From a virus: a DNA stretch of 22,153 nucleotides. The notes under the pieces are model-generated. The model was not told where the DNA came from. It searched no databases and saw only the letters and a list, made by a program, of their open reading frames with translations. The stretch lies in the IMG/VR virus record IMGVR_UViG_3300034407_002314, positions 1-22,153 of that record; one strand, given 5' to 3'. Within the stretch, counting starts at the first letter, position 1; each line of letters opens with the position of its first letter. The position numbers and the translations under genes were made by a program. This document shows positions 2-21,583 of this stretch, in pieces.

Positions 2-3000
2 AATTCAATGAATGCACCTACACAACCAGATGCAGAAACTTCTGCGGAACCAACTTTAGAGGAAAAGAAAGCAGAAATTAAAAATGGTATACCTAAACAA
101 GGTGCTGTTGTTGATGGAGGCAAAGTTGTTTCTGTAATAGAAAACATAGGAGATAGTGCCACAGATTCTGATTTAAAAACTAAACTAGATAACATTCAGG
201 GTAGAACTTTTAAAATGAAAAGGACTTCTCTTGAAACATTATACGAAACAAACAAAGAGTTTAAAAAGTTTGTAGATGAAAATCCTGACATGGTTTATGA
301 TGGTAAGAACAAAAATGCTCCTGCTGTTATTGATAATGAAGGAAATGTTTTAGATGGAATGAAGCGATTGGCTGCTGCATACAACAGAGGTCAAAAAGGA
401 ATTAGAGTTTTTAACGAACAAGAAACCACTGTTTCTAAAGAAGAAGAAACATCTATTGTAAACGCTATAGATAATATTGTATCTCCAACATCTGAGAATA
501 GTACTAATGAATCTATGCAAGACATAGAAAAAATTGGTAACCATTTTCAAAGAGTGTTTAAGGGATCAACAATAGAATTTGATCAAGAAGTATTTAATGC
601 TGAGGCTCAAAAGAGAGGATTAGATCCTGCAAAAAATAAAGGCTTCAGAGACAGAAATACAAACCAAATTTATATAAACCCTAAACTTGCTACGCTAGAT
701 ACACCTATACATGAGTTTGCTCATATATGGGAGGATATGTTGGCTGAAGTTAATCCAGATGCTCATAAAAAAGCAATGGCTTTAATTAAAGGCACAAAGT
801 TTCATAAAGAAGCGGTTGCTAACGGTTATGGAGATAGAGCACTAAACGAGGCTTTAGTACAGGCTATTGGCGAAAAAAGTGCTAAAATATTTAAAGATCC
901 TAAGAGACAATCACAGTTTGAAAAAGTAATTGATCAAGTTAAACAGGCAATTAAACAAGCATTAAACTTACCTGCTGATGCAGATTTTGATATCAAAACA
1001 AGTAGTATTGATGCTGTTATAAACTCAAGTGCTGAGAAAATAATGTCCGCTACAAGTATTGATCCTAATGCAAACAAAGAATCAATTGATGTAGACGCAA
1101 TTGACGCACAGAGATACAAAAACCCTGAGCGTGAAGCAATAAAAGAATTCAATGCGTTAAAAGAAACATTAGAAAACGACCCAACACTATCACAACTTAC
1201 ACCTGTGATGAAGGACGGTAAATATCAATTTACTAAAACAAAATCAGGTAAACTAAAAGTAAAAATTTCTGGTCAATCTTATGCTTTAGTTAATGGAGTT
1301 AATGAACACTTTGAGGGGACTATTGAAGAGAAAATAGATCTGATTGGTGACAAAATTGTAGATGAATTTGAAGCCAATAAGGATGTACCTGAAGTAGTTA
1401 AAGGTTTAGGATGGTATAAAGATTTACATCTAAATATGAGAAACCTCTTTGGAGGTAGAACTAATTTCTTTGGTAGATTATTAGGTGCAACTTCTGGACA
1501 GACAGATGTACAGCAAAATTACAAATATGCTACTCAAGCATTAGAGGCTTACTCAAAGGGTGCTTATGACAAATACCTTGAAGAGTATAAAGAGTTTATT
1601 GATAGGGTAGAACAGTTTGAAAACGAAGAGGAATTAAATCAATTCTTTAACGAATATAAGGGAAGAGCAATAAACGCTTTAAAAAAACAAGGCAAAACTG
1701 CTTATAGCGAATCAAGACTTAAGCCCGATCCCAAAGACATTAACGAAACAAAAAGAAAGTTATTAAATCTATGGCCAAAGGCTAATCCTTTATATAGAAC
1801 TGATAATCCTACAAAACTATACGGTATTAATAGTCCTGCTGCTGCAAAGGTATTAGCAGGTATATGGTTGCAACAAACTCAACAATCAAAGACAAATAAC
1901 TTTTATGAAAATGTTGTTGGTCTAACAACAAATCCTACTATTGATTTATGGGCTGCTCGTACAATAAGACGAATGGTTTACGATGGCAATGTTGATAGAT
2001 ACAGAATTGCTGAGAGAGCAGAGCAAGGTGTGGATGAAAGAGTTTATGCTGCTGAAGCAGGAGGTTTTTCAGATTATCAATTAGCGGAAGAGGTTATCAA
2101 AAACGCTTCGGCAAAACTAGACATGGATCCCGATGATCTACAGGCATACTTATGGTTTGCAGAAAAGGATCTTTGGTTAAAGAAAGGATGGTCAAAAGGA
2201 ACTGCCGCTAAGAAATCTGATTTTAGGGAAGAGGCTGCTAAAAATGATATCACTAGATATTATTTAGGATTAAGTACAGAAAGAGATCAGTATACAGATC
2301 CTGAGTTAGAAGCAAAAGATAACTTAGAGATAATAGAAGAGGAAAGACAGTCTATTCAAAATGACTTAAGAGAGGGTGACCTGGTATCATTAAAAGTAAA
2401 CGAGACACAGGGACAGTATTTAATATATCCTGAAAGAAGTTTTGATGCTGAGATGATTGTAAAGTCGGATCAAGATATGACTCCTGTTTTGAAGAGGGCT
2501 ATAGAGTCTGCAAAGAAACATGAGCAAGAGTCTGTGTTCTTATCAGAGGTATTACCTATTGATGAGAGAATGGATCCTGAAACAATGGAGAGAGAATTGG
2601 CTAAACGTCCAAACGCTCGGCCTGCTGTTGAAATGCAATTTAGAACTCCTATGAGTTTTGAAGAAGCATCTACTTTTGCTAGAGAAAATTTAGACAAAGA
2701 AGGTGTTCAATTAGGACCAGTAAAAACAGATATCTCTGGTTATACTTTTATAACTAATGAAGCAGGAGATAAAGTCTTAGGTGTTAAGTATCAGTTTGTT
2801 CCAGAGTTTGTATTTGAAAACGAAGAGGATATTACAGATGATAATGTAAGGCAAGCAGTTAGCGACTGGAGTAATAATGCACATGAAACTAAATTAAATT
2901 TAGAAAACAACGAAAATGTTTTGTACTTTTACAACCATTATGTAGATACATTCGTTGCTCACAATAATCAATACAACGGAATCTTAAATAATATAGAAAA

Positions 3001-6000
3001 TGGATCAAAAGACATATTTAAAGGAACTAGCAAAACACGCACAAAGGAATACTTCCAATCAAAGGCCACAAGAGTCGAATCCCAACAAGGAAGTCCAAGT
3101 GTCGATGCACAAAGACAACAAGATGAAGGGGATAGATCCCGCTTCTCTGGAACTGTATCGCCAAATGATGGCGGATCGATTTCAGGAGTCGAACACAGAA
3201 GAATAGATCAAGCAAAACTACCTGATCAACTTACACAATTACTTACTACATTGAGTGGACAAGGCATGGTGCCTTCTAAACTTATTCACGCAATTAAGAT
3301 TTATTCTCAAAGAGTAGATGGTAAAGAACTATCTACTGAACAAGCGAGAATGCTGCTTAATAAGTTTATGCAATCTCAAGGTTTCAGACAAAGAGGTTTT
3401 GAGACAGGATCAATTACAAAGGGTAAAGATTCTGATGTAGGTAAACAAGAAGTGTATGATTGGGTAAACGAAAATCCAAACTATTATGAAACCATGGATA
3501 TGAAACAAACCATGGAACTAATATTGGAGGATATAAATTCTAGAGGAGGTTTTGAAGCGGAGCAAGTTATAAAAGACTTACTAAAAGCAGATCCTACAAT
3601 AAAAGAATTGCCTAGAGTTCAACTTGCTAGACAAGCGGCATTACATCATTATGGATTAAAGGTTAGTAAACTTAGATCAGAAGGTGCATCAGAAACAGAA
3701 ATCGATTCTGTTATAGATACAATGGCTCAAATCGAACGTGCTCTAGCAAAAGATGCTACGTTTGCAGGTCAAGCCTCTGCCGCATTAAGATCTTGGACAG
3801 CACAAACAGCCGCTACATTAATTGACAGGACTGAACGTGCCATGGAGAAGTTTAACGAGGACATGGATAATAAAAGTAAGTTTGGTAATTTTATTCATAG
3901 GCTTTTTGGAGGTAAACAAAAATTAGAAAGCACAACACTATCACCAGAACAGCGTAAAAAAATTGAAGAGTTACACTCTATAATTAAAGACGCTCCTGCT
4001 AACAGTGAACTTGCTAATGTTGCTATGAGATCTATGTATAAATATATGGATTCAGTATTACCTTCTTACACATGGCAAGACACGTTTTTTGGTTTGCAAT
4101 ACGCAGCACTTTTATCAGGTGTTTCTACGCAAGTATTAAATGTAACATCAGGTAGTGCAAACATTGTTTTGCAACCATTAATGGAAATGTCTAGAATAGA
4201 TAAAATCTTTACAGGCGGTTACTTTGATTTCATAAGAAAGATTGGTTCTGGCACAACTAAAAAAGGTATGCAGCAAGGCTATAACATGGCTATGGATATC
4301 TGGAAAAATGGAGCCAGAGTAGATAAATACCAGAACTCTGAAAGCACACCAGATGGTGGTCAGTACAATGTTTTAGAAACTACAGAGTTTAAAACAGGTG
4401 GTAAAGCAAACCCTTACAACTACTATAAGTATGTGGGTAGAATGTTAAATGCTACTGATAGATTTATAAGTAAAGTTGGATATGAAGGTAGATATTATAA
4501 TTATCTGATAGATCAATTAAGAAAAGATGGTGTTCCTAAAAGTCAATTAAGAAAGAGAGCATCAGAGTTATACTTAGCAACTGAAGTTAGTAGAACCGCA
4601 CAAAAGGAAATGGAAACCTTAATGAACAGAATGCGTGAGGCTGATCCTGATACTGATTTTAGTAATATAGAAGTTGTTAGAGCAAGAGAATTAATGCACG
4701 AAGCACTTGCTTTAAAATACAGTGAAGACTTTGTTGACAAATCAGATGCTGAACTTGAGGTAATGAAGGAAAAAGATGGTTTCGATGGAACCATTGAAGA
4801 GTTTAAAGAATACATGAAGGCCATGAAAGAGGCTGAAATAAACGGTATTGCTACAGACGCTAACTTGGCTAGTAATTCACAGGTGTTTATAGACAATAGA
4901 CCAGGAAGTTTTTCTCAACCTATTGCTTGGGTCGCTGAGAAAATTCGACAAGCATCCAATTCACAAAGTATAGGATTTGGTGGAAAACTTGCCATAAAAT
5001 CATTTGTACCTTTTACAAGTATTATTGGTTCAATTGGTGAATATATGATCGATGTTACACCTGGTATAGGTTTAGCAAGAGCATATATGGCTAAGGATGG
5101 TTTAGGTGAAAAGGGATCTAGAATGAGAGACGAACAAATGTCTAGAGCATACTTTGGTACAATGTCGTTTTTAGGTCTAGCAGCACTTGCGGCTAAGGCA
5201 TATGAAGATGATGATGAAAAACCGTTTTTTGAAGTAAGTGGTGGAGGTTACAACAACTCTAATATGTACACTAGAAACGATATGAAGAATGCTGAACTAC
5301 CTCCATATTCTTTTAGAGTTGGTAATGTGGTTATGGATTACAGAAACATAGTTCCTTTATCAATTCCATTGGCCATCATAGGTAATTATATGGAAACTCA
5401 CAAGATGACAGGAGGAAAAGGTGAGGTGTTTGATGATATGATGTCTAGACTAACTATTGCTTATGCAAACTCAGCAAACTTAATTATGGATTCATCTGTA
5501 CTTACATCTGTGAAAGAATTAACTGAGGCTATATTTGGTCAAGTAGATGGTAGAGGATCTCAGTTTGATCCTAATACAGTTAGTGATTCTAGTTTAAATA
5601 AAACATTACAGCGAATAGGTAAAACATCTATAAAATCTATTGGAGGAACTGTTTTAAGACCACTACCACAAAACCTAAATTTATTTAGACAAACGACTAA
5701 AATTCTTGACGCAAACTCATACAGTGCGGGAGATGCTAAAAATGCATTATTATATGCAGCAGGACTTAGTCAAATAGCAGGTCAACCAAAGGTAGATGTG
5801 TTTGGTGAACAGGCTAAAAGTTACCCAGGTGAAACAGTAATTCCATATACTCATTGGTTAGGCTTAAGAGGTGAAGATGCTAGATGGCAGTTTTTAGATA
5901 AGTATAATGCTTATCCTGGTAAAATTCAAAACAGACCTATGAAGATAGGAAGAGATATGAGAACTCTTACAGATGATGAACTTTACCAACATCAAATAAC

Positions 6001-6193
6001 TACTGGTCAAGAGTTTAATAAACTCATTACTAAATATATGAAAGGAAGAGGTAGACTTGAAGATAAAATACTTACTTATTCAGGTAGATCTCAAAGCATG
6101 CACAAGATGAATATCTCTAAAATGTGGACTGCTGCTCAGGCTAAATCTAAACTCAAGAATAAAAAATCCTGGAGAAACACAATAATAGATTAA
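2..6193 (+). CDS. Giant polyvalent phage protein with zincin metallopeptidase motif (5' end open at window edge)
   Basis: The frame is open from base 2, so the first in-window ATG (base 8) may be internal; from there the product has 2061 residues. Numbering from that Met, residues about 20-135 end in a ParB-like stretch with D116-G-M-K-R120. Residues 175-330 hold H235-E-F-A-H239, an HExxH zinc-protease motif, with E281 as a candidate third ligand. Residues 600-720 are a helical domain. The last third has hydrophobic stretches near 1362-1390, 1665-1690, 1714-1730 and 1780-1795. This arrangement matches the phage polyvalent proteins, long multi-domain products thought to be packaged and injected with the DNA. 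It lies directly upstream of the lysis genes, as late or internal virion proteins often do. The family call is by architecture, and substrate and exact role are unknown. Confidence 0.8.
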   Translation, partial: NSMNAPTQPDAETSAEPTLEEKKAEIKNGIPKQGAVVDGGKVVSVIENIGDSATDSDLKTKLDNIQGRTFKMKRTSLETLYETNKEFKKFVDENPDMVYDGKNKNAPAVIDNEGNVLDGMKRLAAAYNRGQKGIRVFNEQETTVSKEEETSIVNAIDNIVSPTSENSTNESMQDIEKIGNHFQRVFKGSTIEFDQEVFNAEAQKRGLDPAKNKGFRDRNTNQIYINPKLATLDTPIHEFAHIWEDMLAEVNPDAHKKAMALIKGTKFHKEAVANGYGDRALNEALVQAIGEKSAKIFKDPKRQSQFEKVIDQVKQAIKQALNLPADADFDIKTSSIDAVINSSAEKIMSATSIDPNANKESIDVDAIDAQRYKNPEREAIKEFNALKETLENDPTLSQLTPVMKDGKYQFTKTKSGKLKVKISGQSYALVNGVNEHFEGTIEEKIDLIGDKIVDEFEANKDVPEVVKGLGWYKDLHLNMRNLFGGRTNFFGRLLGATSGQTDVQQNYKYATQALEAYSKGAYDKYLEEYKEFIDRVEQFENEEELNQFFNEYKGRAINALKKQGKTAYSESRLKPDPKDINETKRKLLNLWPKANPLYRTDNPTKLYGINSPAAAKVLAGIWLQQTQQSKTNNFYENVVGLTTNPTIDLWAARTIRRMVYDGNVDRYRIAERAEQGVDERVYAAEAGGFSDYQLAEEVIKNASAKLDMDPDDLQAYLWFAEKDLWLKKGWSKGTAAKKSDFREEAAKNDITRYYLGLSTERDQYTDPELEAKDNLEIIEEERQSIQNDLREGDLVSLKVNETQGQYLIYPERSFDAEMIVKSDQDMTPVLKRAIESAKKHEQESVFLSEVLPIDERMDPETMERELAKRPNARPAVEMQFRTPMSFEEASTFARENLDKEGVQLGPVKTDISGYTFITNEAGDKVLGVKYQFVPEFVFENEEDITDDNVRQAVSDWSNNAHETKLNLENNENVLYFYNHYVDTFVAHNNQYNGILNNIENGSKDIFKGTSKTRTKEYFQSKATRVESQQGSPSVDAQRQQDEGDRSRFSGTVSPNDGGSISGVEHRRIDQAKLPDQLTQLLTTLSGQGMVPSKLIHAIKIYSQRVDGKELSTEQARMLLNKFMQSQGFRQRGFETGSITKGKDSDVGKQEVYDWVNENPNYYETMDMKQTMELILEDINSRGGFEAEQVIKDLLKADPTIKELPRVQLARQAALHHYGLKVSKLRSEGASETEIDSVIDTMAQIERALAKDATFAGQASAALRSWTAQTAATLIDRTERAMEKFNEDMDNKSKFGNFIHRLFGGKQKLESTTLSPEQRKKIEELHSIIKDAPANSELANVAMRSMYKYMDSVLPSYTWQDTFFGLQYAALLSGVSTQVLNVTSGSANIVLQPLMEMSRIDKIFTGGYFDFIRKIGSGTTKKGMQQGYNMAMDIWKNGARVDKYQNSESTPDGGQYNVLETTEFKTGGKANPYNYYKYVGRMLNATDRFISKVGYEGRYYNYLIDQLRKDGVPKSQLRKRASELYLATEVSRTAQKEMETLMNRMREADPDTDFSNIEVVRARELMHEALALKYSEDFVDKSDAELEVMKEKDGFDGTIEEFKEYMKAMKEAEINGIATDANLASNSQVFIDNRPGSFSQPIAWVAEKIRQASNSQSIGFGGKLAIKSFVPFTSIIGSIGEYMIDVTPGIGLARAYMAKDGLGEKGSRMRDEQMSRAYFGTMSFLGLAALAAKAYEDDDEKPFFEVSGGGYNNSNMYTRNDMKNAELPPYSFRVGNVVMDYRNIVPLSIPLAIIGNYMETHKMTGGKGEVFDDMMSRLTIAYANSANLIMDSSVLTSVKELTEAIFGQVDGRGSQFDPNTVSDSSLNKTLQRIGKTSIKSIGGTVLRPLPQNLNLFRQTTKILDANSYSAGDAKNALLYAAGLSQIAGQPKVDVFGEQAKSYPGETVIPYTHWLGLRGEDARWQFLDKYNAYPGKIQNRPMKIGRDMRTLTDDELYQHQITTGQEFNKLITKYMKGRGRLEDKILTYSGRSQSMHKMNISKMWTAAQAKSKLKNKKSWRNTIID

Positions 6194-7629: not shown

Positions 7630-8883
7630 TTACAATGTAGTTACTTTATCCCTCAACATTTCAAACATTTCAGATACCCTGTACTTAATTAAAATGTCTG
7701 AATGAAACTTTGTATACTTTGCTAACATCATGGGTGCCTGAGTGTCCTTATAGTGTTTTGAAATTGTATTGTCTGTTTGAAACATAAGTTCTCTAATATC
7801 GGCATCAGGAATACTAATAATAGACCCTGTTGTATTAAATGCTTTTCTTGCTGATTTATAACTATGACCTGTCAATTTTTTAAATTGCATTTGATTGACT
7901 TTCCAAACACTATCATCAACCAAACCACTCATTATTGGAAAAAGACTTTTATTATTTGGATTAGTTAAGCGGTTTAATAATAATATGATTTCTTTAATTG
8001 GATTTAGTCCCATATACACCAATCCCATTTTGTTAGTTTTTGATCTAAAATGTTTATACACCATATTTTCCTCAGCAAACAAATATTTTTTATGGTTCTC
8101 ATAGGTAGAGTTTACGAATGATTTCATTGATAATTTTTCAAGATCTTTAGCATACATTCCTCTCAATGAAAACATTAACAAATAAATTAAAATAGATATT
8201 ACTTCTTTTTTAAATTTCTTGTCATTGTGATTTAATTTTTTTATTACATCAATTAACTCATGAGACTTCATCCATTGTGGTGTGAAATTTTTTTGAGGAT
8301 TTGTTCTAACGTGAGGAAAAACATTAAATGTGATTTCATCTTTTAATGCGTGAGAATGAAGTGCTTTTATTGCTCTATGATAAGTATTAAATGTAGCGGG
8401 ACTTCTTCCTTTTTCTGCCAGGACTTTTTTAAGTTTTACCCAAACTTGTTTCTGACATATATCTTGAAAAGTAAGGTTTTTAATTCCAATGTTAGCAGCA
8501 ACCGACCTGACTTTATTTTTATAGTCATTGAAAGTAGTTTCTCTCATTTGATCTTTAAGATGATTGTCTAAGTAGGAATTAATATCATTCACATAAGATC
8601 CATAGGTTAACCTAGTTTTAGCCTCTTCAAAAGTAAGACTTCCAATAGCACTTTGCATGTGAAGATCATGAACAACATCCGTTAGTTTTTTTACTTGTTT
8701 ATTCTTTTGTTCAAAATATGGATGATCAGGTTTTAACCTTTTATTTTTTTTATCCCAATGTTTTTTATACACTTTTATTGCAGTATATATTTTTTTATCA
8801 AGCAGTTTGTTTTTGAAACGAACATGTAACAATACAGTTCCATCCTTATTAGTTTCTTTTCTGCTTCCAATTAATAATCCCAT
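7630..8883 (-). CDS. Tyrosine site-specific recombinase (phage integrase), degenerate active-site box
   Basis: This 417-residue protein has the three-part build of Bacteroidetes phage and ICE integrases: an N-terminal arm-binding domain (1-90), a SAM-like core-binding domain (about 95-185) and a catalytic domain (205-417). The first catalytic arginine is R241 (FSLRGMYAKDL), a lysine near 282-285 fits the beta-hairpin lysine, R346 is in SYKSARKAF, and Y378 (ISKHYKD) is the probable nucleophile. The usual HxxR histidine is replaced by K343 and the GH position by F368-Q369. Such changes occur in active members of this group, so I treat it as functional. The start codon directly abuts one of two 23-bp repeats, which suggests arm-site autoregulation. 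It should insert and excise the prophage. Confidence 0.9.
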   Translation of the reverse strand: MGLLIGSRKETNKDGTVLLHVRFKNKLLDKKIYTAIKVYKKHWDKKNKRLKPDHPYFEQKNKQVKKLTDVVHDLHMQSAIGSLTFEEAKTRLTYGSYVNDINSYLDNHLKDQMRETTFNDYKNKVRSVAANIGIKNLTFQDICQKQVWVKLKKVLAEKGRSPATFNTYHRAIKALHSHALKDEITFNVFPHVRTNPQKNFTPQWMKSHELIDVIKKLNHNDKKFKKEVISILIYLLMFSLRGMYAKDLEKLSMKSFVNSTYENHKKYLFAEENMVYKHFRSKTNKMGLVYMGLNPIKEIILLLNRLTNPNNKSLFPIMSGLVDDSVWKVNQMQFKKLTGHSYKSARKAFNTTGSIISIPDADIRELMFQTDNTISKHYKDTQAPMMLAKYTKFHSDILIKYRVSEMFEMLRDKVTTL

Positions 8884-10693: not shown

Positions 10694-11003
10694 ATTTATT
10701 AAAATCTTTGTAGACATATACCATTTTGTTTTTTACAAAACTTTTTATGTCGTTGAATTCTGCTGATTTGTGAAATCCTTTGTATGCTAAATAATAATCT
10801 TGTCCGTATCCATTGGGCCTAATAAAATATTCTTCTTTCCCAGGAACAATCTCATCAATATTAGCCATCCGCAAAAGATCACCACTTTCAAACTTCTTAT
10901 GTATTCCTATCTTACCGCCCCATTTATTTGTTTCCCAAACAATTTTAAATAGGTTATGGTTACTGTCCTCTAAACTTCGGGAACTGCCCTGGTGCTGTAT
11001 CAT
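10680..11003 (-). CDS. Hypothetical protein downstream of primase-helicase
   Basis: The 107-residue product begins MIQHQGSSRSLEDSNHNLFK and overlaps the primase-helicase 3' end by 44 bases. A start at an internal codon is possible, but the body from about residue 18 (FKIVWETNKWGGKIGIHKKFE) looks coding and lies beyond the overlap. Aromatic residues are frequent (YFIRPNGYGQDYYLAYKGF). No family is recognised. It is co-transcribed between the helicase and the nuclease, suggesting a replication accessory role. Confidence 0.6.
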   Translation of the reverse strand: MIQHQGSSRSLEDSNHNLFKIVWETNKWGGKIGIHKKFESGDLLRMANIDEIVPGKEEYFIRPNGYGQDYYLAYKGFHKSAEFNDIKSFVKNKMVYVYKDFNKYGKH

Positions 11004-12684
11004 ATTGTTCTTCGTTATGCTCTGTGTAGCAGGTTGTTGTTAAATTATATTTAAACTCTTGCATTCCTGTTTTTCCTGTGAACCTCCACCTGACTTTCCA
11101 AATGTGTACCTCAACAAGTTCTTTTTCAAAATCTCTATAAACAGTAATTCCGTTGTCTACTTTATTGAAGAAGTGTGAAGATCCACTTACGCTGTAACCT
11201 GAAGCGACCTCCACCTTCCCATTCTCTTTTTTTAATTTTTGTGGGTGAGCAACTAACACTACTCCACAATCGTATGACTCTTTAAATATTTTTATTTTTG
11301 ACAATTGCATTCCTGTGTATTGGTGCTCATTCATTCCTCGTTCTATCTTGTGTTCTACGAAAGCCCAATTATCAATTATCAAACAGTTAATACCTAACTT
11401 TTTCACTAACTCTTTTCCCTTGTTTAATATTCCATCTACTGTAAGATCATTGTCTTTAAGATTTATAAAAAAGAAATGGTTGTTTATGAAATCAATAGCG
11501 GGATCTAGTTCTTCAGGCTGTAGATTATCTACAGATCCTTTCCCAAATCTTTTACCCGCATACTTTTCAATCAGTTCAGCAACATGAACTTTAATTGGCT
11601 GCTTTTCAGCAGAAAATATTCCAAACTTCCATCCTTTCTTAGCGAGTTCTATAGCAACCTGATCAACAAAACTTGATTTACCATGTCCAGGAACTCCTGT
11701 AACAAGAGTAAATTCGCTAGGTCTCCAGGACATTAACTCATCAAACTTAGGATATCCTATAGTATCACCTTTAGGCATACCATAGTTATATAAATTGTGA
11801 ATTTCGGATCGAGAATCTGATGCTTTACTTACACCTTCTAGTGGAAAAGGTTTTGCAGAATCAATACATTTGACTAATACTTCTGATCCATGCTTAAGTA
11901 AAACATCATTGGCATCCTTGCATCCTTCTGGAAAATTTACTAACCAGACTCTTTCTTTCCCTAGCCTTCTCGATAATTCATCTCTTAATTTAATTCCTGG
12001 TGCATCATTGTCTAAAGCCAGGTATATTTTCTCTTTATTCTCAAACTCATCAATACTATTGTCTAAGTAAGTCAGGTTTTGATTTCCTGTAGATGCTCCG
12101 TTAGGAACAGAACAAGCAAACATAAGTTTACCTTGCTGTAAGCCCGCCTCATAAAATGCCATTGCATCAAACTCGCCTTCGGTTATAACACACCATGAAG
12201 CGGGTTTAATTAGATCCAAACCATACATGATCATCTCGGACCCTTTGTTAAGTTTAAAGTTCTTCTGTGAGTCTCTAAACTTTACATTAATTCTTCTACC
12301 TTTTCTTATGTAGTTAAATTGTATTACAGGTCTTTCAGCAGAAACTTGTGGCATCCACTCTACACCTTCAGTAACTCCAAAATATTCTATTGTGCTGTTG
12401 TTTATACCTCTGTCTTTAAAAAACTTTAAAACCTTATCGCTTAGTGAAGATGATTTTACAACAGGCAATTCATATTCTGACTCGTACTCTGCAACAGATC
12501 CATTTTCTCCACAGTGATGGCAGTAATAAGTACCTGTCTCTACCCAAACTCTTAGGCATTTTTCATTCTTATTCTTTTTCCTGGTGTGAGAACACTTAGG
12601 ACACTTTGTCTTCTGTGGCTCAGAGTTACTATTTCCATTGACTTCAATGCCAATGTCTTGCAGTTTAGATAAATTATCGCTCAT
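10960..12684 (-). CDS. Bifunctional DNA primase-helicase (T7 gp4 / Twinkle type)
   Basis: The 574-residue protein has a zinc ribbon at the N-terminus (C28, C31, C55, C58) that would read the template for primer synthesis. A TOPRIM primase domain follows (E169 in ITEGEFDAMAF; D225-N-D227 in LALDNDAPG), and then a RecA-like DnaB-family helicase domain from about 300. That domain has Walker A GVPGHGKS at 330-337, catalytic E360 (SAEKQ), Walker B LIIDN at 435-439 and sensor H480 (VVLVAHPQK). Length and order match T7 gp4. It should unwind DNA and prime the lagging strand at the phage fork. The start overlaps the initiator gene by 4 bases (ATGA). Confidence 0.95.
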   Translation of the reverse strand: MSDNLSKLQDIGIEVNGNSNSEPQKTKCPKCSHTRKKNKNEKCLRVWVETGTYYCHHCGENGSVAEYESEYELPVVKSSSLSDKVLKFFKDRGINNSTIEYFGVTEGVEWMPQVSAERPVIQFNYIRKGRRINVKFRDSQKNFKLNKGSEMIMYGLDLIKPASWCVITEGEFDAMAFYEAGLQQGKLMFACSVPNGASTGNQNLTYLDNSIDEFENKEKIYLALDNDAPGIKLRDELSRRLGKERVWLVNFPEGCKDANDVLLKHGSEVLVKCIDSAKPFPLEGVSKASDSRSEIHNLYNYGMPKGDTIGYPKFDELMSWRPSEFTLVTGVPGHGKSSFVDQVAIELAKKGWKFGIFSAEKQPIKVHVAELIEKYAGKRFGKGSVDNLQPEELDPAIDFINNHFFFINLKDNDLTVDGILNKGKELVKKLGINCLIIDNWAFVEHKIERGMNEHQYTGMQLSKIKIFKESYDCGVVLVAHPQKLKKENGKVEVASGYSVSGSSHFFNKVDNGITVYRDFEKELVEVHIWKVRWRFTGKTGMQEFKYNLTTTCYTEHNEEQYDTAPGQFPKFRGQ

Positions 12685-16005: not shown

Positions 16006-16968
16006 TTATTTTATTAACATTTCGTTGTGGATTCTTCTTTGTTTTTCTATAGAGTCTGAGTTACTGTGCTTTACGTATCTATAAAACGCTTTTGAACCGT
16101 TAGTGTGTCCGCTAATATTCCTGGCCTCGATCTCACTTAAGCCCTTAGATAGTTGGTAAGTTATACCGCTTGCTCTTAGTTTGTGGGGAGTTATAAGATC
16201 AAACAAAAACTTTTCTTCATGCACAGGATTACCGTTATGATCATAACTATACACTATTTTCTTTTTATGAAATTCATTATAAAACTTTAGCAGTTGCTTA
16301 AGCCTTACTCTAAAGTATTGTTGAGATTGAGAAAAAGATCCCTTGCCCTCCAGGAATTTAAGAACATCATCAGGTAAATAAAAAGAAGATATTGATCCTA
16401 CTCCTTTCTTAGTAATTATCGTAACAACACTGCCATCTGAAGAGGCCTGGAAGTTTACCAGGTCACTTACTCTCATGCAAGAGTATAGCATAAGCCTGGT
16501 GTAGTACCATATGTCCTGGAGTTCGATTCCTGGGAAGTTGTTATGTATAAGTTCTACTTGTGATGGCTCTAGAGCAATTACCTCTGTTTGAAGTTCCTTC
16601 ATGCTCTGTAGTCCAGGAAACAGGTAGCCATAATATGCTTCTGCTTTCTTAAGAGTTGTTCTTATTATTTTTAAATGTGTTTTCCTGGTGTTATGATGTT
16701 TGCAATCTTCTAACATCATGTTTAAGTACTTATTTACGTACGTCTGTAAATTTCGGGTGACCTTCAATCTATCCTTTCTACTATTAACGCTGTTAAGATC
16801 TAAAGCATCTACATTAAAGTTATAATTGTATGCAGACATTTGATTATACACCTGTCTGTAGGAAGTTATAGTTAGGTTTGAAAATTTCTTTCCATAATTT
16901 AATATAGATCCATCCTCTAGTAAAGTAATCACTTGTTTCAGTAAGTGTAAAAAGGTTCCAGGCTTCAT
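16006..16968 (-). CDS. Second tyrosine recombinase (Xer/integrase-like) with complete catalytic set
   Basis: The 320-residue protein has a SAM-like N-terminal core-binding region (about 30-125) and a catalytic domain with R166 (SCMRVSDL), K187/K188 (ITKKG), H262-x2-R265 (TPHKLRAS), H288 (SGHTNGS) and Y298 (FYRYVKH; Y296 is the alternative). Unlike the integrase at 7630-8883 it keeps the canonical histidines, and it lacks the long arm-binding N-terminus. It lies inside the early operon rather than beside an attachment-like region. It may resolve phage DNA multimers, invert a segment or act with the other integrase. No recombination sites for it were found. Confidence 0.88.
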   Translation of the reverse strand: MKPGTFLHLLKQVITLLEDGSILNYGKKFSNLTITSYRQVYNQMSAYNYNFNVDALDLNSVNSRKDRLKVTRNLQTYVNKYLNMMLEDCKHHNTRKTHLKIIRTTLKKAEAYYGYLFPGLQSMKELQTEVIALEPSQVELIHNNFPGIELQDIWYYTRLMLYSCMRVSDLVNFQASSDGSVVTIITKKGVGSISSFYLPDDVLKFLEGKGSFSQSQQYFRVRLKQLLKFYNEFHKKKIVYSYDHNGNPVHEEKFLFDLITPHKLRASGITYQLSKGLSEIEARNISGHTNGSKAFYRYVKHSNSDSIEKQRRIHNEMLIK

Positions 16969-19186: not shown

Positions 19187-19495
19187 TTAGTATGCACTTA
19201 TTGGCATAGATTGATTTTGACTATATGTTTGCTCAAGTTCCTCACCTTGTAAATAAATTGGTGCTGTCATCCTGTGCATGATCTTTGCTAAACTGTCTGC
19301 GATATCTACCAGGTGTTTAGATTCATCCCAATTTTTAATTGTACAATCGTTACCAATTCTACCTAAAATTCCACCTCCTAAATAGTTTTGGTAGGCTGTC
19401 ATTTTTTCTCCTGGATAACCCTGATTTTCTAGGCATATTTCTATACCTCCGCCTCTAGTAGTTACCTGTTGTCTAATAATATTTAAAGTTTCCAT
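19187..19495 (-). CDS. Hypothetical protein
   Basis: The 102-residue product begins METLNIIRQQVTTRGGGIEI and has glycine-rich turns (TRGGG, NYLGGGILGRIGND), then a helix (LVDIADSLAKIMHRM). No family is recognised. The start codon shares one base with the upstream stop (TAATG), so it is coupled to the gene released by the first hammerhead ribozyme. Confidence 0.6.
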   Translation of the reverse strand: METLNIIRQQVTTRGGGIEICLENQGYPGEKMTAYQNYLGGGILGRIGNDCTIKNWDESKHLVDIADSLAKIMHRMTAPIYLQGEELEQTYSQNQSMPISAY

Positions 19496-19920
19496 TATGC
19501 TGAGGTGTTTAAGATTGCGTAAATTTCATCAAGGCATTCGCTATCTGTTGGCTGCTGCTCTTCTTTGTCTGCTTCATACTCGATAGCATCCATGATAGCA
19601 TCCAAAACTTTCATCATTCCATATCCTTCTGCTTGTTCTCTAGAATCTCCATGGTCTAGTAATTCTTGGGCCTGTTCTCTCATGCTAAAACGATTTGGGG
19701 TGACCTCCTCTTCATTCTCAACCCATGGACATGCCTTATTGTATAGAGAGAGAGCAAGACTCTTATCACCTATAGCAGTCATAAGAATATTTAATTCGTT
19801 TCTTTGTGCTGTACCTCTTCTGTATACTCCAGGATCTTCTGATCTTTGGTAGTGCCAATCGTGGTTGGTTAGTGCTTTTTGTAATTTAATGATTGCGTTT
19901 AATTTTACTTGAGTTTGCAT
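19495..19920 (-). CDS. Hypothetical protein, first gene after hammerhead 1
   Basis: I start at ATG 19920 (141 residues, MQTQVKLNAIIKLQKALTNH) because TTAAAAATGAAAATC just before it aligns with the conserved TTAAAACTGAAAAC leaders of the neighbouring genes. In-frame ATG 19929 is an alternative. The body has a motif-like DWHYQRSEDPGVYRRG and an acidic C-terminal half (EYEADKEEQQPTDSECLDEIY). No family is recognised. Predicted ribozyme cleavage would leave a 25-nt leader in front of this start. It is then followed by the long set of early and replication genes. Confidence 0.65.
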   Translation of the reverse strand: MQTQVKLNAIIKLQKALTNHDWHYQRSEDPGVYRRGTAQRNELNILMTAIGDKSLALSLYNKACPWVENEEEVTPNRFSMREQAQELLDHGDSREQAEGYGMMKVLDAIMDAIEYEADKEEQQPTDSECLDEIYAILNTSA

Positions 19921-19940
19921 GATTTTCATTTTTAAGTTAT

Positions 19941-19992
19941 ACAAAGACGCTTCGCAGCGTTTCGCCTGGATCTCACAGGCTCGTCAGTTTGT
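19941..19992 (-). ncRNA. Type I hammerhead ribozyme 1
   Basis: Minus-strand RNA, 5' to 3': stem I ACAAA (19992-19988), core CUGACGA (19987-19981), stem II GCCUG-UGAGAUC-CAGGC (19980-19964), GAA (19963-19961), stem III ACGCU-GCGA-AGCGU (19960-19947), C17 (19946), stem I UUUGU (19945-19941). All invariant core positions are present, including A15.1-U16.1. Predicted cleavage is between 19946 and 19945, leaving a 2',3'-cyclic phosphate upstream and a 5'-OH downstream. Stem I is open, hence type I. The stop codon of the membrane-protein ORF abuts stem I at 19993-19995. Confidence 0.95.
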
Positions 19993-20136
19993 TTACCCTA
20001 AGTATCCGAAACTTACGTTAGGATCTATACCATTTGTTACCAGGTGAAAGATTAGCATTGTAAATGTTATTGCCCACAGTGTGAATAAAGATCCTAAAAG
20101 GCTGTTGATTGCGATTGATTGAATTTTGTTTAACAT
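19993..20136 (-). CDS. Small single-span membrane protein, 47 residues
   Basis: ATG at 20136 follows a leader TTTAAACTGAAAAACT that matches those of its neighbours. The product (MLNKIQSIAINSLLGSLFTL and on to NVSFGYLG) has one transmembrane helix, about residues 13-34, and short polar ends. The TAA is the base next to stem I of hammerhead 1. Neighbour 20164-20304 is another tiny membrane protein, and both lie between ribozymes 2 and 1 as one predicted RNA unit. Function is unknown; superinfection exclusion or antiholin-like roles are possible guesses. Confidence 0.72.
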   Translation of the reverse strand: MLNKIQSIAINSLLGSLFTLWAITFTMLIFHLVTNGIDPNVSFGYLG

Positions 20137-20163
20137 AGTTTTTCAGTTTAAATTATTAATTGA

Positions 20164-20304
20164 TTATTTAAAGTTTGTAAGGTTTATTAGATCCGATTGT
20201 CTCTCAATAAGATCCATTGCTTGAATTAATGCAGCACCTAGGAAAATGATTGCTATTCCAATTACTGTTGCTACTAGTACTAATTTTAATTTTGATTTTG
20301 ACAT
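20164..20304 (-). CDS. Small single-span membrane protein, 46 residues
   Basis: ATG at 20304 gives 46 residues: a basic start (MSKSKLKLV), one transmembrane helix (VLVATVIGIAIIFLGAALIQA, about 9-29) and a polar helical tail (MDLIERQSDLINLTNFK), so the tail is likely periplasmic or cytoplasmic depending on the positive-inside rule (N-terminus in the cytoplasm). The start lies 27 nt after the predicted cleavage site of hammerhead 2. The gene is 27 bases from the next membrane-protein ORF. No family is recognised. Confidence 0.7.
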   Translation of the reverse strand: MSKSKLKLVLVATVIGIAIIFLGAALIQAMDLIERQSDLINLTNFK

Positions 20305-20325
20305 TTTGTTTATTTTAAATTATTT

Positions 20326-20376
20326 GACAATGACGCTTCGCAGCGTTTCGATCATAAAAGATCTCATCAGATTGCC
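20326..20376 (-). ncRNA. Type I hammerhead ribozyme 2
   Basis: Minus-strand RNA: stem I GGCAAU (20376-20371), core CUGAUGA (20370-20364), stem II GAUC-UUUUAU-GAUC (20363-20350), GAA (20349-20347), stem III ACGCU-GCGA-AGCGU (20346-20333), C17 (20332), stem I AUUGUC (20331-20326, one G-U pair). Stem III is identical to that of copy 1 but stem II is different in sequence and length. The UGA stop codon of the upstream gene is the second to fourth base of the core CUGAUGA, and the last sense codons form stem I, so the ribozyme and the coding sequence share bases. Cleavage is predicted between 20332 and 20331. Confidence 0.95.
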
Positions 20377-20621
20377 TGGTATAGTTCTTTGTCTACTTGC
20401 ATCCATAGATTGTAAACATAATTGTAATCAACCCCGATCATGTTGGCAAGTTGCTGAAACAATCTCTCTCTAACTAGGCTGTCTGCTACACCTATGTAGA
20501 GGTATACGTCACCTCCTCTATGTAAGCAATCCAATAAGGCTACAAAACTTGTTAAGTTGATTTCAGATCCTAAATCATCTGTTGGGTAATTGTCCTGGTA
20601 AAATTTTCTTAGTGTTAACAT
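20367..20621 (-). CDS. Hypothetical protein overlapping hammerhead 2
   Basis: The 84-residue product begins MLTLRKFYQDNYPTDDLGSE, has a strand-rich middle (GGDVYLYIGVADSLVRERLF) and a helical end (QQLANMIGVDYNYVYNLWMQ). No family is recognised. Its final codons CAG-GCA-AUC-UGA supply stem I and part of the core of ribozyme 2. The ATG follows a TTTAAACTGAAGACC leader, and the gene lies 10 bases after its upstream neighbour, with which it would form a two-gene unit between ribozymes 3 and 2. Confidence 0.65.
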   Translation of the reverse strand: MLTLRKFYQDNYPTDDLGSEINLTSFVALLDCLHRGGDVYLYIGVADSLVRERLFQQLANMIGVDYNYVYNLWMQVDKELYQAI

Positions 20622-20631
20622 GGTCTTCAGT

Positions 20632-20967
20632 TTAAATTGTTTGTGTGTATAATTCGTTTGTTACCTCTTCGCCTATTATGTAAACAATCATATTTACAGT
20701 AGTTTCTGAATTGTCGTAAGTTCTTACAGCATCATCACCGAAATTTTCTCTCTCGTAATTCTGTACAAACGCAATCGCTTCGAAAGGATCAATGCCATGT
20801 TTGTTTAACCATTGGCTACAGTTGTAATAACCGATTAAATAGTAATCCTGGTTAAAGGCTTCGTTGTGTAGATCGTTATCATCGCTATTCCATTTAACAT
20901 CGTTGTTGTTAGCGACAAAATCATTTAAATACTCTCTTAGTTCAGTTTTGATTGTTTCAGTATACAT
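20632..20967 (-). CDS. Hypothetical protein after hammerhead 3
   Basis: The 111-residue acidic product begins MYTETIKTELREYLNDFVAN and contains NDLHNEAFNQDYYLIGYYNC, QWLNKHGIDPFEAIAFVQNYERENFG and VNMIVYIIGEEV. I have the impression that this order recurs in phage and Bacteroidetes hypothetical proteins, but I cannot name the family. It starts 25 nt after the predicted cleavage site of ribozyme 3, behind the leader AATTAAAACTGAAAACA. Confidence 0.65.
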   Translation of the reverse strand: MYTETIKTELREYLNDFVANNNDVKWNSDDNDLHNEAFNQDYYLIGYYNCSQWLNKHGIDPFEAIAFVQNYERENFGDDAVRTYDNSETTVNMIVYIIGEEVTNELYTQTI

Positions 20968-20987
20968 TGTTTTCAGTTTTAATTAAT

Positions 20988-21041
20988 AATCAGACATCCC
21001 GAAGGATGTTTCGCCTGGATCTCACAGGCTCGTCAGTGATT
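20988..21041 (-). ncRNA. Type I hammerhead ribozyme 3
   Basis: Minus-strand RNA: stem I AAUCA (21041-21037), core CUGACGA (21036-21030), stem II GCCUG-UGAGAUC-CAGGC (21029-21013), GAA (21012-21010), stem III ACAUCC-UUCG-GGAUGU (21009-20994), C17 (20993), stem I UGAUU (20992-20988). Stem II and its loop are identical to copy 1, whereas stem III is fully re-sequenced yet still pairs and is capped by UUCG. Predicted cleavage is between 20993 and 20992. The upstream gene stop (21042-21044) abuts stem I, as in copy 1. Confidence 0.96.
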
Positions 21042-21311
21042 TTATGCTCGTGCTATAATTCCGTCTAGAGTGTCGGCAATTGCGTGTAGATCTCTAAGCA
21101 TCATAATATCGTGTGAGTATAAGCGATCTGCTTCTGCTCTAAGGTTCGTGTAGTAGTAACCGTCATAGATACCGTAAAGAGAGTTAACCAAGTCTGATGC
21201 TCTGAAGCCTCCGTTACGTAAGTTGTTGATTGTTGTTTGAATGAAAGACATCATCATTGGGTTGAAAGTTGTGTGTCTGTCGAATCTGTTGAAGTTGGTG
21301 AAAGTTTGCAT
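21042..21311 (-). CDS. Hypothetical protein, first gene of ribozyme-punctuated segment
   Basis: The 89-residue product begins MQTFTNFNRFDRHTTFNPMM and is rich in aromatic and polar residues (GIYDGYYYTNLRAEADRLY), ending in a helical segment (MMLRDLHAIADTLDGIIARA). No family is recognised. A strong Bacteroidetes-type promoter lies 40-72 bases upstream (21351-21383). Its stop codon touches stem I of ribozyme 3, so cleavage would yield a single-gene mRNA capped at its 3' end by the ribozyme fold. Confidence 0.65.
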   Translation of the reverse strand: MQTFTNFNRFDRHTTFNPMMMSFIQTTINNLRNGGFRASDLVNSLYGIYDGYYYTNLRAEADRLYSHDIMMLRDLHAIADTLDGIIARA

Positions 21312-21350: not shown

Positions 21351-21383
21351 CAAATATAAAGCATTATTTTATTAACATCCAAA
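21351..21383 (-). promoter_or_regulatory. Bacteroidetes-type promoter of the ribozyme-punctuated operon
   Basis: Minus strand: TTTG (21383-21380), 21-nt spacer, TATATTTG (21358-21351), a full match to TTTG-N(19-21)-TAnnTTTG. The predicted start is near 21345, about 34 bases before the ATG at 21311. The spacer contains the motif TTATTAACAT (21369-21378), seen also near the other control regions. This is the best candidate for the head of the leftward transcript. Confidence 0.75.
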
Positions 21384-21506: not shown

Positions 21507-21583
21507 TGGTTACCTGGGAGAGGCTCGAACTCTCAACCTACAGATTAGAAGTCTGTTGTTCTATCCAATTGAACTACCAGGCA
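21507..21583 (-). tRNA. tRNA-Arg (anticodon UCU)
   Basis: The minus strand folds as a complete 77-nt cloverleaf: acceptor TGCCTGG / CCAGGTA (one G-T), D stem GTTC / GAAC, anticodon stem ACAGA / TCTGT with loop CTTCTAA giving anticodon TCT, T stem GAGAG / CTCTC with TTCGAGC loop, and an encoded CCA end at 21509-21507. It reads AGA (and AGG), the dominant arginine codon in this window, so it probably boosts translation of phage genes. It sits between the winged-helix gene and the operon promoter, so it is unlikely to be the phage attachment site. Confidence 0.96.

Follow-up and report, generated by a model that had tools for sequence, protein, structure and literature searches.

The stretch of DNA analysed here (the window) is a virus record of 22,153 bases, with minus-strand genes running from 22055 down to about 7630. 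The early/replication block on this strand holds a DnaA-type helix-turn-helix protein, a YqaJ recombinase and a DNA primase/helicase (10960..12684, minus strand; PHROG 239, E=1e-95; Toprim and DnaB_C), and is headed by six small genes, g1-g6, which encode proteins of 89, 111, 84, 46, 47 and 143 aa. As the primase/helicase lies downstream, the operon leads into replication genes. Comparison of g1-g6 with known families yielded only PHROG and Pfam matches that were weak or had no assigned function. The best full-length relatives of the primase include phages of Cellulophaga, Tenacibaculum and Flavobacterium, and for this reason the host probably belongs to the marine Bacteroidota. Promoters of Bacteroidota follow the consensus TTG / TAnnTTTG, and a candidate promoter of this type can be read about 40-70 nt upstream of g1 (21351..21382, minus strand), composed of TTG (21380-21382), a 21-nt spacer and TATATTTG (21351-21358).

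Several other features were observed in the window. A tRNA-Arg gene (anticodon TCT; 21507-21583, minus strand) is located directly upstream of the operon, and two tyrosine-recombinase-like genes are found at 7630-8883 and 16006-16968 (both minus strand), one of them with an Arm-DNA-bind_5 domain. On the plus strand, a giant open frame (2-6193; >2,061 aa) combines a DUF7178 match with a HEFAH zinc-peptidase-like motif. In addition, a leader repeat that reads AATAATTTAAACTGAA or close to it on the gene strand directly precedes the starts of g1, g2, g3 and g5; the copy at g4 is weaker. Its copies, of 16 nt each, are situated at 20142, 20309, 20626, 20972 and 21317, and it is possibly a translation-start signal.

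Three hammerhead motifs, termed A, B and C, are located on the minus strand at the junctions of the small genes, in the order g1, A, g2-g3, B, g4-g5, C, g6. The g1 gene (21042..21311), which is conserved in 15 viral loci, terminates with a UAA stop codon 5 nt ahead of the core of A (20988..21041; predicted cut between C17 at 20993 and 20992), and g2 (20632..20967; PHROG 10208, no function assigned) starts 25 nt past this cleavage site. The following gene, g3 (20367..20621), ends within the core of B (20326..20376; predicted cut between 20332 and 20331), its stop codon being the UGA of the CUGAUGA element. The start of g4 (20164..20304), whose product has a hydrophobic N-terminal segment, lies 27 nt past the cleavage site of B, and g5 (19993..20136), which also encodes a hydrophobic segment, carries its UAA stop 5 nt ahead of the core of C (19941..19992; predicted cut between 19946 and 19945). 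The first gene past C is g6 (19495..19926), whose ATG at 19926 is found 19 nt after the cleavage site, or 16 nt if an upstream in-frame ATG is counted.

Structure and covariation of the hammerheads

In 5' to 3' direction, with square brackets enclosing stems II and III together with their loops and a slash at the cleavage site, A (21041-20988) reads AATCA-CUGACGA-[GCCUG UGAGAUC CAGGC]-GAA-[ACAUCC UUCG GGAUGU]-C/UGAUU, B (20376-20326) reads GGCAAU-CUGAUGA-[GAUC UUUUAU GAUC]-GAA-[ACGCU GCGA AGCGU]-C/AUUGUC, and C (19992-19941) reads ACAAA-CUGACGA-[GCCUG UGAGAUC CAGGC]-GAA-[ACGCU GCGA AGCGU]-C/UUUGU. All three exhibit the type I layout, in which stem I is open and stems II and III are closed by loops, and B, with its short stem II, represents a second sub-type. 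The core CUGANGA ... GAA, the A15.1-U16.1 pair and H17 are present at all three sites, H17 being a C in each. A structural scan counted 5, 5 and 6 pairs in stems I, II and III of A, 6, 4 and 5 in B, and 5, 5 and 5 in C; under strict settings, it returned three matches in the window and none in 100 Markov-1 copies. Folding recovered the hammerhead as the minimum free energy structure for A and B and as the centroid structure for C. Two combinations of loop II and stem I flank recur, as judged by eye, and loop II-stem I tertiary contacts are plausible in A, B and C; such a contact is required for fast cleavage at cellular Mg2+ concentrations. Stem III of A and C was also flagged by a scan as an intrinsic terminator and was rejected as such, given that the tail that follows contains no real U run.

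A covariance model (R1) was trained on 38 diverse hammerheads from other phages; neither the window nor its near relatives contributed to it. It identified C (E=3.2e-21), A (1.2e-20) and B (6.5e-13), while the next-best site in the window reached 0.075; bit scores across the three sites were 72.5, 70.8 and 47.0, compared with 12.9 for the next-best site. Full cores, paired stems and these R1 matches thus confirm the claim of an earlier note on this DNA that three complete type I hammerheads occur here in the same orientation, each at a gene junction. The 5' ends that it had given for the RNAs after cleavage (20992, 20331 and 19945) likewise agree with the cut positions read from the sequence.

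The search against Rfam hammerhead models that had been proposed as a check turned out negative, whether gathering scores or E-values served as the threshold. In Rfam 15, no hammerhead family came near its gathering score at A, B or C, the best scores, both for sites A and C, being 23.8 of 48.5 bits for RF00008 (Hammerhead_3) and 23.5 of 56.3 bits for RF03152 (RAGATH-1 hammerhead). These families share their core with A and C and differ from them in the open stem or the layout; A and C remain below half of the gathering score. A gathering score is a cut-off for annotation and lies outside the structural definition of a hammerhead, and since R1, built from other phages, scores the three sites at 47-72 bits, the low Rfam scores were not treated as an exclusion. 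The Rfam hammerhead models do not cover the window variant well, and the array exposes this gap, as all three of its copies in the window are missed.

Pairing in stem I was analysed in 87 candidates that had been chosen by core, stem II and stem III alone, with stem I unused. Positions 1-5 of stem I pair in 74-85 of these 87 (85-98%), compared with means of 42-52 (about 50-60%) in shuffled controls. In a second data set, alignment A1, the covariation score was 0.705 versus 0.160 after shuffling, and 97% of cells pair, a value that drops to 25-38% when the partner is slid by one to three columns. As the rows of A1 came from a scan that required pairing, the analysis of the 87 candidates is the cleaner test. 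Similarly, the core bases are invariant in A1 by design of the search patterns, which demanded them, and selection cannot be deduced from this.

Conservation of the array in relatives and other contigs

Three relatives (L005, L006 and L007) carry the same hammerheads, A, B and C, in the same order. A is kept in the L005, L007, L138 and L064 groups, and B and C are likewise kept in relatives. The genes between the hammerheads are less constant: g2 and g3 are lost or changed among relatives while the hammerheads persist. In L007, for example, g3 is deleted and B is retained, and one group of five loci (L138, L090, L078, L106 and L068) is without g2 and carries a fourth hammerhead ahead of g9. 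Another group (L064, L115 and L127) is without B. In a 62.6 kb relative (G001), the only hammerheads are the three copies within the operon. Loci were also retrieved by the g7 and g9 proteins, with hammerheads unused in the retrieval; these loci contained 35 matches to the covariance model, all 35 of them on the gene strand.

Larger arrays occur as well. Two of these protein-retrieved loci carry six (L274:53-2933, plus strand) and five hammerheads (L268:4903-6856, plus strand), so placed that almost all genes in the neighbourhood of a g7 homologue and of a gene for a 285 aa protein are separated by them. The longest array, on a phage contig that was added through the pattern scan (L440:2290-8609, plus strand), comprises at least 12 hammerheads (12 covariance-model matches) on one strand within 6.3 kb, at almost every gene junction. 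Several hammerheads of this contig were observed to have A in place of C at the cleavage site.

Gene turnover between persisting borders, together with a 37-nt repeat (92% identity) that comprises the core and stem II block of A and C and a 24-nt repeat (96%) that comprises the stem III block of B and C, would also be expected if the hammerhead DNA served mainly as a shared border for the recombinational swapping of gene cassettes, with RNA cleavage being secondary. This is unlikely, as the stems change in pairs instead of being kept as DNA, the copies in the largest arrays vary in stem sequence and retain the fold, and the spacing relative to stop and start codons (see below) would be left unexplained.

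Hammerheads are missing from other relatives of the same genes. Neither the scan nor R1 detected a hammerhead near distant g2 relatives, even with relaxed stems included, or at most of the more distant g7 relatives, which indicates that those genes do not depend on the device. Such a patchy presence might suggest that the hammerheads are selfish or barely functional passengers, maintained since a cut between genes does little harm. Passengers would decay, though, and the intact cores and stems, the restriction to the gene strand and the strict spacing render this scenario extremely improbable. No cultured relative with the array was found in the phage collection, either by DNA or by the g7 protein; the DNA matches listed there lie in a 70-base stretch that corresponds to the tRNA.

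Hammerheads with the same stem II were also observed in many species of Legionella (L170-L198) and in other genomes, in both cases mostly without the stop and start spacing of the viral copies. A contig of a Patescibacteria metagenome-assembled genome (L186:6101-7635, plus strand) harbors three hammerhead-like motifs within 1.5 kb, the first and last of which enclose the upstream stop codon in their core.

Stop codons, start codons and proposed mRNA processing

The arrangement of stop codon, ribozyme and start codon was analysed in three sets of hammerheads, using mechanically called ORFs. The stop codon of the upstream ORF falls within a range of -4 to +8 nt relative to the core in 85 of 111 (77%), 117 of 175 (67%) and 12 of 16 cases (75%). 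These counts are partly dependent, since some phage lineages recur between the sets, and the protein-anchored set is a small one. The commonest position is 5 nt, often as a UAA just beyond stem I, or the UGA of the CUGANGA element. The next ATG follows at a median of 26-27 nt past the cut in the three sets. In a control with random positions, each offset received about 1% of the stops and starts were spread nearly evenly. The spacing holds after grouping of the upstream genes into 81 families and of the downstream genes into 65. Moreover, the stops occupy all three reading frames, and a single stop codon built into the motif can therefore not account for the spacing rule.

Conservation next to gene junctions does not by itself demonstrate a role in gene expression. 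We infer cleavage and the types of RNA ends from known hammerhead chemistry, and the effect on expression from the positions of the motifs. The best explanation, to which a probability of roughly 0.7 is assigned, is that the hammerheads divide the early mRNA into units that can be stable and translated independently of one another. In this model, the three type I hammerheads would cut the early transcript in cis, during its synthesis, at the three gene junctions. The predicted pieces are a g1 RNA of about 350 nt, a g2-g3 RNA of 661 nt, a g4-g5 RNA of 386 nt and a message that extends from g6 into the replication genes; this is the layout that the earlier note had put forward, and this part of its proposal stands. 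On each upstream piece, the ribozyme would remain as a structured 3' terminus that bears a 2',3'-cyclic phosphate. Each downstream piece would have a 5'-OH, followed by a short leader, rich in A/U and 19-27 nt long, which is roughly what a normal 5' UTR measures. In this way, every gene block would probably gain a 5' leader of its own and protection at its 3' end, and a single promoter could serve blocks that differ in stability and translation.

Same-strand pairs of type I hammerheads that flank 386 and 661 nt would leave ends competent for ligation, and the released segments could close into retrozyme-like circular RNAs carrying g2-g3 or g4-g5, through RtcB or through self-ligation by the hammerhead. 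This possibility was named for bacterial arrays by Perreault et al. (2011; PMC3088659), who sought circular or spliced products of such arrays and found none. Retrozymes have ribozyme-bearing direct repeats that flank one non-coding unit, whereas the hammerheads of the window flank differing conserved genes and share short core repeats only. As the segments hold ordinary genes with leaders and many contigs carry a single hammerhead, circle formation appears very unlikely.

In the proposed mechanism, upstream translation would never cross the ribozyme, as the stop codon abuts stem I, and the ribozyme could fold once the terminating ribosome has departed. Hammerheads with a tertiary contact cleave rapidly once folded (PMC6155905). 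The cut would leave the downstream gene with a free 5' end and a leader similar in length to that of a promoter-derived transcript. The same geometry could be turned into an argument for conditional switches, in which a protein, a small RNA, the ribosome or a metabolite governs cleavage at each junction: a ribosome terminating flush with stem I or within the core would occupy the ribozyme's 5' half and might prevent folding until it is released. A, B and C are, however, of minimal size and carry no aptamer-like additional domain, and regulation of this kind is considered quite unlikely. An extension of mRNA segmentation to a general, gene-by-gene punctuation in environmental phages is tentative and is given somewhat less than even odds. 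In this reading, arrays that comprise from 3 to at least 12 hammerheads, each set between a stop codon and a start codon about 27 nt past the cut, would convert the message of one promoter into many separate short mRNAs, and termination at the stop codon would time the folding.

Comparison with known systems

Polycistronic early messages of phages are known to be cut between genes by RNase III or RNase E, for example in T7. The proposed processing would resemble this system in the position of the cuts and differ from it in that self-cleavage takes the place of a protein enzyme and the RNA ends are of another type. A closer parallel is provided by the haloviruses HF1 and HF2, in which a single hammerhead (HHphage) is located upstream of a helicase gene and the 5' end mapped for an early polycistronic transcript of HF2 is no more than 3 nt away from the cleavage site (PMC3088659). 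As in the window, this ribozyme is situated a few nucleotides ahead of a start codon; unlike in the window, there is one ribozyme per transcript and its core is a variant.

The closest match is found in prophages, where clusters of hammerheads flank genes and processing into operon- or gene-length mRNAs has been proposed (Perreault et al., 2011; PMC3088659). In Agrobacterium tumefaciens, for example, three hammerheads surround ardA, and cleavage of this array was shown both in vitro and in E. coli (PMC3088659). The earlier note had named single hammerheads as the reported kind and had judged a tandem set to be a possibly undescribed system; this cannot be upheld, as clusters with the same proposed processing have been known since 2011 (PMC3088659). 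The window, with three same-strand hammerheads among g1-g6, is a further case of clustered phage hammerheads and no new system, and the same applies to its relatives. The prophage clusters and the window share the arrangement of several hammerheads that flank single genes of phage origin or short blocks of them. The window differs in its genes, probably in its host group, in that all hammerheads are of type I, and in that the array belongs to the early operon of an environmentally sequenced phage.

The available part of the 2011 article mentions neither the spacing rule nor arrays that reach or exceed 12 hammerheads (PMC3088659), and nothing closer was found in later open-licence literature on tandem phage hammerheads. 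As far as the literature covered goes, contigs with four, six and at least 12 hammerheads, and the failure of Rfam 15 to recover A, B and C, are new relative to open-licence publications. Additions to the earlier descriptions are the conserved location in the early operon, the spacing rule, the turnover of genes while the ribozymes stay in place, and arrays of such great length; any of them may have been reported elsewhere. The role of bacterial and phage hammerheads was called an open question in a 2017 review (PMC6155905). With a conserved array that has a fixed geometry of stop codon, ribozyme and start codon, occurs on many contigs and reaches a dozen copies in one region, the mRNA-processing idea that was proposed for the prophage clusters becomes directly testable.
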